12,871 bases of DNA from positions 1 to 12,871 of the forward strand of contig CANJNU010000002.1 in assembly GCA_947475645.1 (NCBI GenBank), written 5' to 3'. The translations under genes were made by a program, and so were the position numbers. Under the pieces are notes generated by a model. It was not told where the DNA came from and did no database searches. It saw nothing but the letters and a program-made list of their open reading frames with translations. Within the stretch, counting starts at the first letter, position 1, and every line of letters begins with the position of its first letter. The DNA comes from Bacteriovoracaceae bacterium (GTDB lineage Bacteria; Bdellovibrionota; UBA1018). This document shows positions 6,571-12,118 of the stretch, in pieces.

Positions 6571-7049
6571 TGGGCATGACCGTGCTTCACCTCTTCGGAG
6601 GTCGCATCGCGAAGCGACAAAACCTCGACAAAGAAATGAAGCTCAACGCCAGCCAGCGGGTGATTTCCATTAATATGAACTTGTTCACCTTCCAAAGCTT
6701 CGACCCTAAATACCGCGCCACTTCCTTCGGGGGTCGCCGCTTCGAACTCCATCCCCATTTCAAGCTGAACATTCTTCGGAAACTGTGCACGCGCAACAAT
6801 CAATTTCAAGTTCGGATCGATTTCGCCGTAACCCTCCGAGGCCGAAACACGCACCTCTTTTTTATCGCCTGGGTTCAAGCCAACGAGGGCGACCTCAAGA
6901 CCAGGTACAATCTGATGCGCTCCATGTAAATAAGTAAACGGAGTAGTAGAATCGGCTTGATCCAGAACTTCACTTTCCGCGTTTTTTAACGTGTATGCTA
7001 AGTTCACCACTTTACCGTCTGCGATGCCTGCAGTTGCTACTTTTGACAT
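6543..7049 (-). CDS. slyD: FKBP-type peptidyl-prolyl isomerase with His-rich tail (SlyD)
   Basis: Cytoplasmic prolyl isomerase and folding chaperone; in E. coli SlyD also supplies nickel to hydrogenase. The 168-residue product has the split FKBP domain: YLHG near 40-43, IVPGLEVAL near 47-55, and EGYGEIDPNL near 72-81, then the insert-in-flap chaperone domain (about 76-122), then GNHPLAGVELHFFVEV near 128-143, which closes the FKBP fold. The tail VKHGHAHGEDGHHHH holds seven His within the last 13 residues and no Cys; it is shorter than the E. coli tail, which has more His plus several Cys. Metal binding by the tail is inferred. ATG at 7049 has a good GAGGA four to five bases upstream. A run of eight U follows the stop codon, and valS starts 36 bases later. 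Confidence 0.95.
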   Translation of the reverse strand: MSKVATAGIADGKVVNLAYTLKNAESEVLDQADSTTPFTYLHGAHQIVPGLEVALVGLNPGDKKEVRVSASEGYGEIDPNLKLIVARAQFPKNVQLEMGMEFEAATPEGSGAVFRVEALEGEQVHINGNHPLAGVELHFFVEVLSLRDATSEEVKHGHAHGEDGHHHH

Positions 7050-7203
7050 GAAATCCTCGTTTTTCTCGATTTTACTTTCGTTACTTGTGGTGAATCGATC
7101 CGGCCGTTTCTGTCAACTCAGGCCAGTCAATTACCGCAGTTAATGTTGCACAATAAGCAACGATTCTGCACCATAACGCAATGCGCGTGTTAAAAATCTT
7201 TAC
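7050..7203. other. Intergenic region upstream of slyD
   Basis: The longest gap in the window (154 bases), between the GT-C gene end and slyD. Read towards slyD it holds a perfect TTGACA (7116-7111), but the hexamer 17 bases on is TCACCA, a poor -10. Nearer the gene, TAAAAT (7074-7069) is a good -10 match but its upstream -35 is weak (TCGATT, 18-base spacer). Either could drive slyD and the genes behind it; neither is convincing alone. A small inverted repeat, GTTGC-seven bases-GCAAC (7145-7161), has no U tract after it, so no clear terminator for the GT-C gene is seen. Confidence 0.35.
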
Positions 7204-8265
7204 TCACCGGGTAGAATAAATCGAATAAACTTCTTCAGTAAGCACAGGTCGCGCGGACTCGAAAACCCTCTGTCGCCACGCACATCCTTCGGGCGGCACC
7301 CTCCCCCTGAATCGCCCAAAGTAGACTTGTTGATTTGGAAACAACTCGCCCACTCGACTGCCCCATTCACGGCACCACTGAGAAATCGTTCCCCGATTGT
7401 CCGCCAATGAGAAAAAAGGATACGCTAAAAATCTATGCCTTCGCGCAGAAAACAGGGGGGCATCAAGAACTCCTGAAACCGGAAAATAGATCGCCTCTTC
7501 CCAATCCTCGTCTGCCAATACAATTAAAACGGAGCGTTCACTTTTAAACTGCGACTTAAAAATGTGCGAAACCTCACCCGATCCAGATAAGTCAAACTCA
7601 GGAATAACCTGCCACGGCTTCCAGCTCGAAATCCATCGTAGACTCGCAAAAAACATCAATACAACGGGAATACCAACCCAGAGCGAGCGTCTTAATTTCG
7701 GCTGTCCATCGATTACAAAAGCGAGCCAAGTTACATAAATCAAACCAGCATGACGCAACGAGGCATGATAAACTCCTCCCATGACATAAAGAGGTGAGGA
7801 CACAACCCAAAGGAATCTTCGAACCGGAAAACTCAATCTCGATAACGGAATCATGAGTCCTATTAAAACTACGAGCGCAGACCAAGTTTTCCAGGGATGA
7901 GCGTTCCACTGAAAAGAACCCGTCCAACCATCCACACCAAGCATTCCATGGGCCATGGCTCGAATGGCAGCATCACCTTGAAACGCAAAGACCGAGCCCA
8001 CCCCCCCTCCAAAACTCGAATCGGCTGGAGGTCGCTGACACCATAGCGATAATCCCAGAAAAACTACAACCCAGGCTCCTTTTCTTAGCTCCTTCGTCCA
8101 GGAGCCGCCCTTTTTCAGCCGGTCATAAACCCAAAGCGAATAAAATGCTGCAGCAATTCCGGTAAAATAAAGATGAACCCAGGAGAGCAGAATCAAAGCC
8201 AGTCGAGCCAAATTCCATGCCCGCATCTGCCTGAACTTCAGAAACGCCAGTAAAAAAAAACACAC
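7204..8265 (-). CDS. Predicted GT-C membrane glycosyltransferase, 3' part after frameshift
   Basis: This frame carries the rest of the protein begun at 8689. Opened by a nominal GTG at 8265, it gives 353 residues, but it has no ribosome site there and begins mid-protein inside a membrane helix (FFLLAFLKF). About six to eight hydrophobic segments follow, for example LALILLSWVHLYFTGIAAAF, GAWVVVFLGLSLW, WSALVVLIGLMIPL, LWVVSSPLYVMGGVY, and SLWVGIPVVLMFFASLRW. A soluble C-terminal region of about 120 residues closes the protein. Joined to the upstream frame by removing one T from the nine-T run, the product is a continuous 494-residue polytopic protein. The long intact 3' frame with normal codon use argues that the gene was under selection until recently or still is. 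Confidence 0.72.
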   Translation of the reverse strand: MCFFLLAFLKFRQMRAWNLARLALILLSWVHLYFTGIAAAFYSLWVYDRLKKGGSWTKELRKGAWVVVFLGLSLWCQRPPADSSFGGGVGSVFAFQGDAAIRAMAHGMLGVDGWTGSFQWNAHPWKTWSALVVLIGLMIPLSRLSFPVRRFLWVVSSPLYVMGGVYHASLRHAGLIYVTWLAFVIDGQPKLRRSLWVGIPVVLMFFASLRWISSWKPWQVIPEFDLSGSGEVSHIFKSQFKSERSVLIVLADEDWEEAIYFPVSGVLDAPLFSARRHRFLAYPFFSLADNRGTISQWCREWGSRVGELFPNQQVYFGRFRGRVPPEGCAWRQRVFESARPVLTEEVYSIYSTR

Positions 8266-8689
8266 CTAATGCATAGCAGCGAGAAACCACGCCGTACTCA
8301 AAAAAGAATAAAATACCAAATATAATCAAGTACTTAAGTGGTCTTTTAAGTTGAAAACCAAAAAGAATCATCGCCGCGGAAGCAACCGAAAATACTGCCG
8401 TGAGCGACTGAAAAACCCATTTCTCGGACGAGCCCGTAATCTCATAAAGAATGCGCAAAAGAACGTAAAGGAGAGGCGGCTGACGCTCGTACCTGATCGC
8501 ATTAAAAAATTCAGACACAGTTCTTGTATGAATCGAAACCAGCCAACTTTGCCACTCGTCACGCCAGGGTACATGCTGTTTGAGACATAAAATAAAAAAG
8601 CTCATCCAAACCAAGAAAACAACCCAGTCCAATCGTGACGGATTGGACTCATTTTTTTTAGGCAGGACGCTAAAGATAGACTTGTTCAT
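8123..8689 (-). CDS. Predicted GT-C membrane glycosyltransferase, 5' part before frameshift
   Basis: N-terminal part of a polytopic membrane protein resembling lipid-linked-sugar glycosyltransferases (PMT/ArnT-like GT-C fold). The first helix (about 21-37) is followed by PWRDEWQSWL near 41-50, where the Asp-Glu pair in the first outer loop matches the catalytic position of GT-C enzymes. RQPPLLYVLLRILY near 69-82 matches the usual PPL-Y segment, and EYGVVSRCYALGVFF near 131-145 matches a later conserved loop. Past about residue 146 this frame stops being hydrophobic and ends at 8123 after about 40 nonsense residues. The true continuation is in the other frame (7204-8265). ATG at 8689 has GGAG nine bases upstream; a TTG at 8725 would overlap rmlB and is less likely. 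Acceptor and donor are unknown; the rmlB neighbour suggests surface polysaccharide or lipid modification. Confidence 0.7.
   Translation of the reverse strand: MNKSIFSVLPKKNESNPSRLDWVVFLVWMSFFILCLKQHVPWRDEWQSWLVSIHTRTVSEFFNAIRYERQPPLLYVLLRILYEITGSSEKWVFQSLTAVFSVASAAMILFGFQLKRPLKYLIIFGILFFFEYGVVSRCYALGVFFFTGVSEVQADAGMEFGSTGFDSALLGSSLFYRNCCSILFALGL
8252..8260 (-). repeat. Nine-base homopolymer at frameshift (U9 in mRNA)
   Basis: Plus-strand A9, read as U9 in the GT-C mRNA, directly after the codons for CYALGV. Removing one base (or adding two) joins the two halves of the protein in one frame. Tracts of this length are known sites of replication slippage (phase variation), polymerase slippage during transcription, and sequencing errors. 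Confidence 0.95.
8652..8659 (-). repeat. Eight-base homopolymer near start of GT-C gene (A8 in mRNA)
   Basis: Plus-strand T8, read as A8 in the mRNA and coding Lys-Lys-Asn near residues 11-13 of the GT-C protein. It is the second long homopolymer in the same gene. As given, the frame is open through it; a one-base slip would stop translation soon after the start. Confidence 0.95.
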
Positions 8690-8716
8690 GCGTCGTAGCT
8701 CCAGTAGGTAGTAAAG

Positions 8717-9772
8717 ATGCTGCAAAATAATAACGAGAGCAAGACTTACTTAGTCACCGGCGCTGCAGGATTCATCGCAAGCACCTTCGTACGGCAACTC
8801 ACGCAACAGGGCCACCGGGTCGTGGTTCTCGACGCCCTAACTTATGCAGGCCATCGAGAGAACTTAGAAGCGATTCCAGGCCCTGGCAAACTCGATCTCG
8901 TTATAGGAAACATCTGCGACTCAAACCGAGTGCCTCAGCTCCTCAAAGAATACCCCTTCGATGCTGTACTTAACTTCGCTGCAGAATCTCACGTCGATCG
9001 ATCGATTACAGGGCCACAGTCATTCATCGAAACCAACATTCTAGGAACCTTTAATTTGCTTCAATGTACCCTTGCCTACTGGCAAGGATTAGAGGGCAGA
9101 AAAAAGAAAGACTTTCGCTATCTTCAAGTCTCGACTGATGAAGTTTACGGATCACTGGGACCGACAGGAAAATTTCACGAAGCACTTCCTTATCAACCCA
9201 ACTCGCCCTACTCGGCATCCAAAGCTGCCGCCGATCATTTAGTGCGGGCCTGGCACCATACCTATAATCTCCCTACTCTCACCACCAACTGCTCGAATAA
9301 CTATGGCCCCCGGCAGTTTCCTGAAAAACTCATTCCCCACATGATTCTCTGTGCACTTCAAGGTAAGCCGCTCCCCGTTTACGGAGACGGTGGCAACGTG
9401 CGCGACTGGATTCACGTCGAAGACCACTGTCGAGGAATCGAGCTTGCTCTGAACAAAGGTACCCCCGGCGGCACCTACTGCTTTGGTGGAAACTCCGAGC
9501 GAGACAACCTCAGTGTAGTTAAAGCAATTTGCCAGCAGCTGGATGCGATTCGTCCCCGATCGGATGGAACATCGTATTCACAACAAATTACCTTTGTAAA
9601 AGACCGATTGGGTCACGATCGCCGCTACGCTATCGACGACACACTTGCACAGAAAGAACTTGGATTTACTCGAAACTACAATTCGTTCGAAGAAGGTCTT
9701 CGGGCTACACTGCACTGGTACCTGGATCATACGCCCTGGATCACCGCAGTTACCTCTCACGCAAAAACATAA
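8717..9772 (+). CDS. rmlB: dTDP-glucose 4,6-dehydratase
   Basis: Second enzyme of dTDP-L-rhamnose synthesis: converts dTDP-D-glucose to dTDP-4-keto-6-deoxy-D-glucose with bound NAD. The 351-residue SDR-family product has VTGAAGFIAS near 13-22 (dinucleotide binding), NFAAESHVDRSI near 86-97, STDEVYG near 139-145 (Thr-Asp-Glu catalytic triad), and YSASK near 165-169 (catalytic Tyr and Lys). NNYGPRQFPEKLIP and DGGNVRDWIHVEDH follow, all typical of RmlB. ATG at 8717 has AGG about eight bases upstream (within TAGGTAG). The gene diverges from the GT-C gene with only 27 bases between the start codons, so its promoter must reach into that gene; I saw no strong one. It heads the rmlBADC operon; rmlA follows after 27 bases. 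Confidence 0.97.
   Translation: MLQNNNESKTYLVTGAAGFIASTFVRQLTQQGHRVVVLDALTYAGHRENLEAIPGPGKLDLVIGNICDSNRVPQLLKEYPFDAVLNFAAESHVDRSITGPQSFIETNILGTFNLLQCTLAYWQGLEGRKKKDFRYLQVSTDEVYGSLGPTGKFHEALPYQPNSPYSASKAAADHLVRAWHHTYNLPTLTTNCSNNYGPRQFPEKLIPHMILCALQGKPLPVYGDGGNVRDWIHVEDHCRGIELALNKGTPGGTYCFGGNSERDNLSVVKAICQQLDAIRPRSDGTSYSQQITFVKDRLGHDRRYAIDDTLAQKELGFTRNYNSFEEGLRATLHWYLDHTPWITAVTSHAKT
8727..8757 (-). promoter_or_regulatory. Candidate promoter for the GT-C gene, inside rmlB
   Basis: Read on the minus strand, TATTAT (8732-8727) matches the -10 consensus at five of six bases. Upstream at 18-19 bases is TGACTA/GTGACT, a partial -35 with a long spacer. Transcription would start near 8720, about 30 bases before the ATG at 8689, and the promoter would sit within the first 14 codons of rmlB. 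Weak on sequence alone. Confidence 0.25.
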
Positions 9773-9799
9773 CCACTGACCACGATGGGGACCTCTACA

Positions 9800-10681
9800 A
9801 TGAAGGGTATTATACTAGCTGGGGGAAGTGGAACTCGCCTCTACCCACTTACAAAGACGATTAGTAAACAACTTCTTCCCGTTTACGACAAACCTACCAT
9901 CTATTATCCACTTTCCACGCTCATGCTTGCAGGGATTCGCGAAATCTTGGTCATCAGTACACCCAGAGATCTTCCTATGATCGAAGCACTCTTGGGCGAC
10001 GGATCGCAAATCGGGATCAAACTCTCCTACAAGGTTCAAGAGAAACCTGAAGGAATCGCGCAAGCTTTCCTTTTGGGCGAGAACTTTTTGCAAAATAGTG
10101 CCTGCTGCCTGATCTTAGGCGATAACATCTTCTACGGCCACGAACTCGCCAAGCTCGTAGAAGATGCCACGACCATGGAGACCGGCGCGCGGGTTTTTGC
10201 ATACCACGTGAAGGACCCCGATCGATATGGGGTCGTTGAATTCGATGCTCATGAAAAAGCGATTTCTATCGAAGAGAAACCCAAAAATCCAAAATCCTCT
10301 TGGGCGGTGACTGGACTTTATTTCTACGACAAAAATGTAGTAGCTTATACTCGAGCACTTAAACCCTCCGCTCGTGGCGAACTCGAGATTACCGATCTCA
10401 ACCAAACTTATCTAACAAAGAGCCAACTCAGTGTCTCCAAAATGGGTCGTGGCATCGCTTGGCTCGACAGCGGAACCTATGATTCACTCCTTGAGGCCTC
10501 GCAATTCGTTCAGACCCTCGAACGCCGGCAAGGTCTAAAAGTGGCCTGCCTCGAAGAAATTGCCTACCTCAAAGAGTTCATTTCAGGCGATCAACTCCTT
10601 GCACTTGCCGACCAGTACAAGAATAGCGATTACGGAAACTATTTGCGCCGAGTTCGTGATGAAAACCCTCGAAAATCTTAA
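9800..10681 (+). CDS. rmlA: Glucose-1-phosphate thymidylyltransferase
   Basis: First enzyme of the pathway: joins glucose-1-phosphate and dTTP to give dTDP-glucose. The 293-residue product has [13 protein letters not shown] near 6-18 (nucleotide binding loop), [20 protein letters not shown] near 22-41, LGDNIFYG near 106-113 (metal-binding Asp), GVVEFD near 144-149, EEKPKNPKS near 158-166, and [15 protein letters not shown] further on. These match RmlA along the whole length. ATG at 9800 is chosen because it puts [13 protein letters not shown] at the family's usual start and has GGGG about nine bases upstream. An ATG at 9785 would add five residues (MGTST) with no support. The gene follows rmlB after 27 bases, and its last 23 bases overlap rmlD. 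Confidence 0.97.
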
Positions 10682-11573
10682 AATTCTGATCTTTGGCAGC
10701 CAAGGACAACTCGGAAAAAGCCTTATCCACGCCTGCAAAGCCCGCGGAATCCAAACTCTGGCGTGCGACCGAAGCCAGGGAAATTTAGAGAATCCAGAGG
10801 AGATTTTTAGACTCATCGTCAAGGAGAGGCCTGGAGTCGTTTTCAATGCCGCAGCCTACACACAGGTCGATCGTGCCGAGACGGAAAGAGACCTCGCACT
10901 TACCATTAACGCCAAATCTCCACAAAAGATGGCTCAAGCTTGCGTAGAGGTAGGCGCACCCCTGATCCACTTCTCGACCGATTATGTTTACTCAGGCACA
11001 GGTGAACGCCCTTGGACCGAAGAAGACACGATTCAACCTTCCAATTTTTACGGACACACGAAGGCTCTCGGTGATCAGTGGATTACAGAGGCACACGAGT
11101 GTAAATTTCTTATTTTCAGAACTTCATGGGTTTATCACGCCGAAGGTAAAAACTTTTTTCAATCGATGCTTAAACTCGGACGAGAAAAGGAAACCCTTCG
11201 CATCGTTTGCGACCAAATAGGGTCCCCTACCTACGCCCCTTTTCTCGCCCAGACCGCACTGAATTCACTCGAAAAGGCTTTGAATTTACCCCAATTCCCA
11301 TCGGGGATCTATCACGCATCGAACTCTGGCTTCACGTCTTGGGCTGGATTTGCAGAAGAAATTTTTGCACAAGCGAAGAAGGCAGGAACTCCTCTTCAAA
11401 TTCAGACGCTCGTCAGAGTTCCGAGCTCTGAATACCCAACCCCTGCCAAGCGTCCTCTTAACTCAAGGTTTAACCTGACAAAGCTTGAGGCCTCCTTTGG
11501 AATTCACCCCCCGGATTGGAAGGAAAGTCTTCGCGACTGTTTCCTCGACTATTCACGATTGGAAAAATTATGA
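10659..11573 (+). CDS. rmlD: dTDP-4-dehydrorhamnose reductase
   Basis: Last enzyme of the pathway: reduces dTDP-4-keto-L-rhamnose to dTDP-L-rhamnose with NAD(P)H. The 304-residue SDR-family product has [11 protein letters not shown] near 12-22 (cofactor binding), [14 protein letters not shown] near 61-74, [12 protein letters not shown] near 104-115 (Thr-Asp-Tyr region), YGHTK near 131-135 (catalytic Tyr and Lys), and FRTSWVY near 153-159. The frame is open further upstream to 10560, but those residues lie inside rmlA and do not resemble RmlD, so the ATG at 10659 is used. It overlaps rmlA by 23 bases. No strong ribosome site is seen, which suggests coupled translation. The stop overlaps the rmlC start as ATGA. 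Confidence 0.96.
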
Positions 11574-12118
11574 AAGTTCACTCATTAGAGCTCAACGGCC
11601 TTAAGCTCATTGAACTTAAAGTTCACGGAGACTCGCGCGGCTTTTTTGTAGAGCGCTTTAACGAGCGAGAATTTCAAACCCACGGACTACCCACTCACTT
11701 CGCGCAGGACAACCACTCCAGATCGGCCCACGGTATTCTCAGAGGCCTTCACTACCAAACCAACCCTGCACAAGGGAAACTCGTCGGCGTGACTCGTGGA
11801 AAAATTTGGGACGTCGCAGTAGACATTCGGAGAGATTCTTCTACCTTTGGAAAGCATTTCGCAGTGGAGTTGAGCGACGAAAACGGACTGATGATGTGGG
11901 TGCCCGCAGGATTTGCTCACGGATTCTGCGTTACCAGCGACTCCACAACAGACGTTCTCTACAAGGTAGACACGCTTTATAGCCCTCAAACCGAAGGCGG
12001 AATTGCCTGGAACGATCCAGAGCTGGAAATCACTTGGCCCGTTTCACACCCGAGCCTTTCGGCTCGGGATCAGAAACAGACTTCATTTGCAGATTACTGT
12101 AAGCATCCAGCCTTTTAA
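11570..12118 (+). CDS. rmlC: dTDP-4-dehydrorhamnose 3,5-epimerase
   Basis: Third enzyme of the pathway: epimerises carbons 3 and 5 of dTDP-4-keto-6-deoxyglucose to the L-rhamno form. The 182-residue cupin has GDSRGFFVERF near 20-30, RGLHYQ near 58-63 (catalytic His at 61), GKIWDVAVDIRRDSSTFGKH near 77-96 (Asp partner), WVPAGFAHGF near 110-119, and the active-site Tyr in DVLYKVD near 128-134. The length is normal. ATG at 11570 overlaps the rmlD stop by four bases, with GGA about seven bases upstream; an upstream ATG at 11516 lies in rmlD and adds unrelated residues. It ends one base from the convergent transaldolase gene, and a strong hairpin lies within its last 70 bases. Confidence 0.97.
   Translation: MKVHSLELNGLKLIELKVHGDSRGFFVERFNEREFQTHGLPTHFAQDNHSRSAHGILRGLHYQTNPAQGKLVGVTRGKIWDVAVDIRRDSSTFGKHFAVELSDENGLMMWVPAGFAHGFCVTSDSTTDVLYKVDTLYSPQTEGGIAWNDPELEITWPVSHPSLSARDQKQTSFADYCKHPAF
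12049..12068. terminator. Perfect 8-bp hairpin at convergent rmlC/transaldolase ends
   Basis: CCCGAGCC-TTTC-GGCTCGGG is a perfect GC-rich inverted repeat inside the rmlC codons for HPSLSARD. On the minus-strand transcript its loop is GAAA, a stable GNRA tetraloop, and it falls about 50 bases past the transaldolase stop. It sits ahead of the rmlC stop on the plus strand. Neither side is followed by a proper U run, so it is not a canonical intrinsic terminator. It could pause polymerase, protect a 3' end, or end the transaldolase transcript. Confidence 0.4.

Follow-up and report, generated by a model that had tools for sequence, protein, structure and literature searches.

Contingency genes carrying homopolymer tracts are known from Neisseria, Campylobacter and Bordetella, and the locus described here likewise combines a tract at which the reading frame changes with a gene likely to act on surface sugars. 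Unlike in those genes, a single tract length is seen, in one sequence, the tract does not lie near the gene start and the other long tracts of its genome are found in housekeeping genes. A literature search on Bdellovibrio and phase variation returned nothing on contingency loci in this group among the matches listed. Frameshifts at tracts have also been described in Blochmannia, where, according to the available portion of the report, the affected genes may be corrected by transcriptional slippage (PMC3017870). As far as that portion describes them, those genes too are otherwise undamaged and change frame once, within an A/T run, but those genomes are AT-rich with more than 100 coding tracts of nine or more, whereas the genome analysed here has 50 % GC and few such tracts.

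The stretch of DNA analysed (the window) is the entire contig 2, 12,871 bases in length, of a 57 % complete draft genome whose 243 contigs add up to 1.30 Mb. Among named sequences, its valyl-tRNA synthetase is closest to those of environmental drafts, at 65 % identity under the label Bacteriovorax stolpii and 60 % under Proteobacteria; the closest named relative of the split gene considered below is labelled Oligoflexia bacterium. These labels suggest a Bdellovibrio-like lineage from the environment. For the species itself a protein search matched only the window's own fragment, and the genus is represented by one genome among those searched. In L007 (904-6892, minus strand), which among named sequences is nearest to the valS region, several long glycosyltransferase-looking membrane proteins lie beside valS in place of the split gene. 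An Rfam search of the window matched no known RNA element. The features relevant to the locus are as follows.

7204..8250, minus strand, downstream half of the putative GT-C gene, 348 codons plus stop, without a further stop
8001..8007, minus strand, G7 tract in the downstream half, in frame with relatives and absent from the initial annotation
8252..8260, minus strand, T9 tract, site of the frame change, on which the homology gap falls
8262..8689, minus strand, upstream half of the putative GT-C gene with the first transmembrane helix and the HVPWRDE and RYER-PP motifs; its frame continues to a stop at 8123
8652..8659, minus strand, A8 tract in N-terminal codons 11-13, identical with the T-tail of a terminator-like hairpin on the plus strand
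8626..8649, plus strand, hairpin with a perfect 9-bp stem and a 6-base loop, followed by CA and T8, pointing towards rfbB
8717..12118, plus strand, divergent dTDP-rhamnose-type operon, from Pfam matches
8717-9772, plus strand, rfbB-like
9785-10681, plus strand, rfbA-like
10560-11573, plus strand, rfbD-like ORF
11516-12118, plus strand, rfbC-like ORF

Read on the minus strand, the upstream frame extends from a stop at 8752-8750 to a TGA at 8125-8123 and has its ATG at 8689. A TAG at 8268-8266 and a TGA at 7206-7204 bound the open downstream frame, and the third frame is shut on either side of T9 (8300-8298 and 8240-8238). Alignments confirmed that one protein is divided between 8689-8262 and 8250-7204, with the frame changing at T9: both pieces align end to end with unbroken relatives and do not overlap, the upstream one corresponding to their first third and the gap falling on the tract. 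The upstream piece ends in ...SRCYALG in the alignment and the downstream piece starts with LAFLKF..., T9 filling the space between them, so that the meeting of two frames at 8252-8260 (U9) recorded in the initial annotation is borne out. The end-to-end alignments rule out two separate neighbouring ORFs. The position of the shift is limited by the TAG at 8268 upstream and by homology that resumes directly after T9, which occupies codons 144-146, away from the start of the gene. The downstream half has 35 % identity to the relative in genome G002 (E 2.2e-53) and comprises the C-terminal domain together with most of the membrane domain, while the conserved WRDE and RYER-PP motifs lie in the upstream half. 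T9 itself rests on a single consensus sequence from a fragmented draft genome.

The family of the split gene had no match to Pfam or NCBIfam profiles or in a sequence search of the PDB, and by these searches it is a rare, small family outside those that Pfam and NCBIfam name. An AlphaFold2 model of the relative P0002, rather than of the window protein, has a GT-C fold (pLDDT 84.7, pTM 0.87) with ArnT, OST, PMT and ALG12 as best structural matches, the structural alignments listed first having 8-15 % identity. Residues D26 and E27 of P0002, directly after helix 1, are invariant in 7 relatives, and the acidic residues of this first outer loop (WRDE) are also found in the window's upstream half; we take the conserved D/E of the first outer loop in GT-C proteins to have a catalytic role. 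The split gene probably encodes a membrane glycosyltransferase of GT-C fold that would transfer a sugar from a polyprenyl-phosphate carrier to a cell-surface molecule. Its predicted fold is that of the ArnT, PMT, ALG and OST enzymes but, as no curated GT-C profile matched, it is best described as a GT-C-fold protein and not as a member of a named family. The alignments and the relative's predicted structure together support the earlier description of a GT-C-type protein divided at T9. Within its own genome (57 % complete) no GT2 partner gene was found at E 1e-30.

Matches to the gene were found in 8 of 368 genomes of the phylum, and the gene is broken only in the genome of the window. None of the seven other genomes has a stop inside the match, four of these matches being near full length and three partial and weak; the database relatives P0002-P0009 are called proteins, among which broken versions would be under-seen. 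The codons that match T9 carry T7 in G002, G7 in G028 and G032, and no tract in G306, the 7-base tracts all being in frame. Under synonymous shuffling the chance of a tract of seven or more at this place is 9 % in G002, 11 % in G028, 7 % in G032 and 17 % in G306, and because G028 and G032 share a genus they amount with G002 to about two independent cases. We regard these tracts as a weak, after-the-fact hint in the aligned sequences that the place may be tract-prone, and as the main support left for a switch.

The sugar-nucleotide (rml/rfb) operon said to adjoin the split gene is indeed present, with four Pfam-supported ORFs (GDP_Man_Dehyd/Epimerase, NTP_transferase, RmlD_sub_bind and dTDP_sugar_isom). 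The start codons of rfbB and of the divergent glycosyltransferase gene are separated by 27 bases (8690-8716), so that one promoter at least has to lie partly within the neighbouring gene; a consensus scan did not find a promoter-like site near either start. The A8 tract noted at 8652-8659 in the same gene exists when the minus strand is read, but the same letters form the T-tail of the hairpin on the other strand, and hairpin plus T8 (8626-8659) lie about 60 bases before the rfbB start at 8717, within the start of the glycosyltransferase gene. A stem of nine or more ending within 3 bases occurred at 0.027 % of random positions (200,000 trials), and of 277 runs of T7+ in 120 contigs, counted over both strands, 9 had a stem of eight or more, this hairpin included. 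The stretch folds somewhat better than its shuffles (z -1.92, 5/200), and terminator-like sites as a class showed no significant enrichment in 7000-9000 (5 found versus 2.8, sd 1.9, in shuffles). The hairpin may be a candidate attenuator or terminator ahead of the rhamnose operon, and its T-tail would explain A8 better than a contingency tract, as which A8 had been read.

The tract census covered 140 of the 243 contigs (919,149 bases, 50 % GC) and returned 95 tracts of eight or more, namely 54 A/T tracts of eight, 17 A/T tracts of nine or more, 15 G/C tracts of eight and 9 G/C tracts of nine or more. The final script flagged a junction of two frames at one of these 95, the T9 of the window. 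By a strict rule 43 tracts lay inside one open frame, a count that includes the window's T9, scored 'intact' because the upstream frame continues past it, and so leaves 42 others; the same rule missed genes with T9 on L116 and L201, both of which were read by eye and then checked with Pfam. In-frame T9 tracts occur in a signal peptidase gene (Peptidase_S26) and, near its start, in a gene for a solute-binding protein (SBP_bac_5), and in-frame G9 tracts in a quinolinate phosphoribosyltransferase gene (QRPTase) and an Hsp70 gene near the edge of a contig. Many genes thus contain in-frame tracts of eight or more, which argues that the assembly is not generally faulty at tracts, makes an assembly-wide homopolymer problem unlikely and means that long tracts do not mark switch genes in this genome; the earlier proposal that they do is not supported, since the assembly has them in frame in its housekeeping genes as well. 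Among A/T runs of nine or more, the window's T9 is the only one found well within the body of a conserved gene; the two further coding T9 tracts are near gene starts.

We took 504 ORFs with a length of 150 codons or more, drawn from 120 contigs, and compared their tract frequencies with synonymous-codon shuffles. T9 or longer was observed three times, the window tract included, versus 7.0 (sd 2.2) in shuffles, and A9 or longer not at all versus 7.1; A8 was observed 10 times versus 20.5 and T8 7 times versus 15.9. G9 or longer was slightly commoner than expected (4 versus 1.4). T9 is rare in the coding sequence of this genome, yet not beyond chance, and long A/T tracts are avoided there, as they are in many bacteria according to the part of the genomic survey available (PMC1088944). 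Depletion of A9 and T9 is as expected if such tracts slip. Two tracts of eight or more occurred in three genes, compared with 4.8 (sd 2.2) after shuffling; the count leaves out the window gene, whose tracts fall in two ORFs and which would raise it to four. With two-tract genes at chance level, two tracts in one gene mean little, and the pair in the window gene no longer serves as the mark of a contingency gene that it was thought to be. Nor is poly-G9 a signature of this genome, some being found in all 20 genomes searched.

A cruder earlier test flagged 49 tracts of six or more as frame changes. Of the five that reached eight or more, one was the window's T9; the others, two T8 tracts in L194, a G8 in L102 and a T9 in L089, we read as gene edges or non-coding sequence. 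They lie in weak or single ORFs or close to the end of an ORF, and the final script left them unflagged. Irrespective of tracts, 255 same-strand ORF pairs, normal neighbours included, were candidates for a frame switch, and in none of five high-ranked pairs tested with Pfam did one domain span both frames. Two of these five may still be frame breaks: a possible one at G6 in L192 (438-1761, plus strand) has a downstream frame matching FMN_dh 193-345 of 350 and an unmatched upstream frame, and one without a tract in L158 (4282-4775, minus strand) has a downstream piece with only the last third of an SCPU domain. In L087 (11022-13193, plus strand) a single frame contains ParA/MinD-type and T2SSE ATPase domains with a G9 between them at 11874-11882, and in L112 (2178-3821, plus strand) a G10 at 2277-2286 lies near the start of a frame for an FAD/NAD-binding oxidoreductase.

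We consider the chances about even that a single recent slippage frameshift has left the gene otherwise undamaged and OFF in the assembled allele. A replication slip in the sampled lineage would have altered a run of T coding for Phe, giving T9 and placing the halves in different frames; neither half is likely to function alone, as the conserved DE lies upstream and most of the membrane domain downstream. That the gene is OFF by a slip and otherwise sound is indicated by the absence of any other stop in the 348 downstream codons and by the unbroken relatives, and the OFF state through a slippage-type frame change is in this sense supported. We infer that the slip occurred in vivo, recently and in principle reversibly, so that a later slip could restore the ON state; an evolved switch is not needed. 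It is rather unlikely, though a possibility of some weight, that T9 alone is a consensus or assembly error and the gene is intact in the living population. The break sits exactly on the one such A/T run well inside a conserved gene body, in a fragmented draft with both halves otherwise undamaged, all of which speaks for an error, but the 42 other tracts in frame by the strict rule, the further ones read by eye and the lack of a general excess of frame breaks at tracts speak against it. Of the sequencing or assembly error first suggested, the assembly-wide form is unlikely, and an error confined to T9 is the form that keeps some weight.

An evolved contingency locus, in which the tract is kept and changes in its length switch a surface sugar modification ON and OFF, is unlikely. 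Such a locus would be consistent with a frame-changing tract in a likely surface-glycan gene beside a rhamnose-type operon, and with 7-base tracts at the matching codons in three of four relatives, each with a 7-11 % chance. These tracts were however noticed after the fact, represent about two independent cases, differ in base and are only 7 long and in frame, and against a switch stand also the depletion rather than enrichment of T9 and A9 in coding sequence, nine-base tracts in housekeeping genes, the position at codons 144-146 and the failure of the protein search to find a second sequence of the species. The fuller version, a phase-variable GT-C gene of an uncultured, Bdellovibrio-like bacterium in which homopolymers arise again and again in the codons after the conserved SR.Y..G motif (T9 in the window gene, T7 or G7 in its relatives) and toggle the surface sugar, is doubtful to a slightly greater degree. 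Programmed ribosomal frameshifting at T9 is hardly credible, since the slippery run of UUU codons that invites it would have to support a +1 shift; the U-UUU-UUA heptamer serves -1 frameshifting and is out of phase here, the relatives have one frame and structure directly after T9 is at chance level (z 0.34). Transcriptional slippage that restores the frame in some mRNAs and gives low-level function is very improbable. It would suit an A/T run of about nine at the junction and the depletion of A9 and T9 in this genome, and in the available text of the survey selection against slippage becomes visible at nine A/T across many genomes of bacteria, and disrupted ORFs that carry such tracts have been described (PMC1088944). 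Passage from the upstream to the downstream frame, however, needs one U lost or two gained, and as slippage in runs typically adds one base in E. coli and Buchnera, according to the portion of that study at hand (PMC5574713), a rescue would require a rarer event; a one-base gain leads into the third frame, closed at 8240-8238. Nor is the break common to the relatives whose DNA was compared: of the seven other genomes with a match, three of them partial, none has an internal stop.

Should the tract vary in cells, a little-known lineage from the environment would have a surface gene of the contingency type. The locus is also a worked case of a tempting homopolymer pattern tested against its own genome: long tracts there mostly keep the frame and occur in housekeeping genes, and a tract by itself therefore says little for a switch. 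The gene belongs to a small family of predicted GT-C fold that Pfam and NCBIfam leave unnamed.
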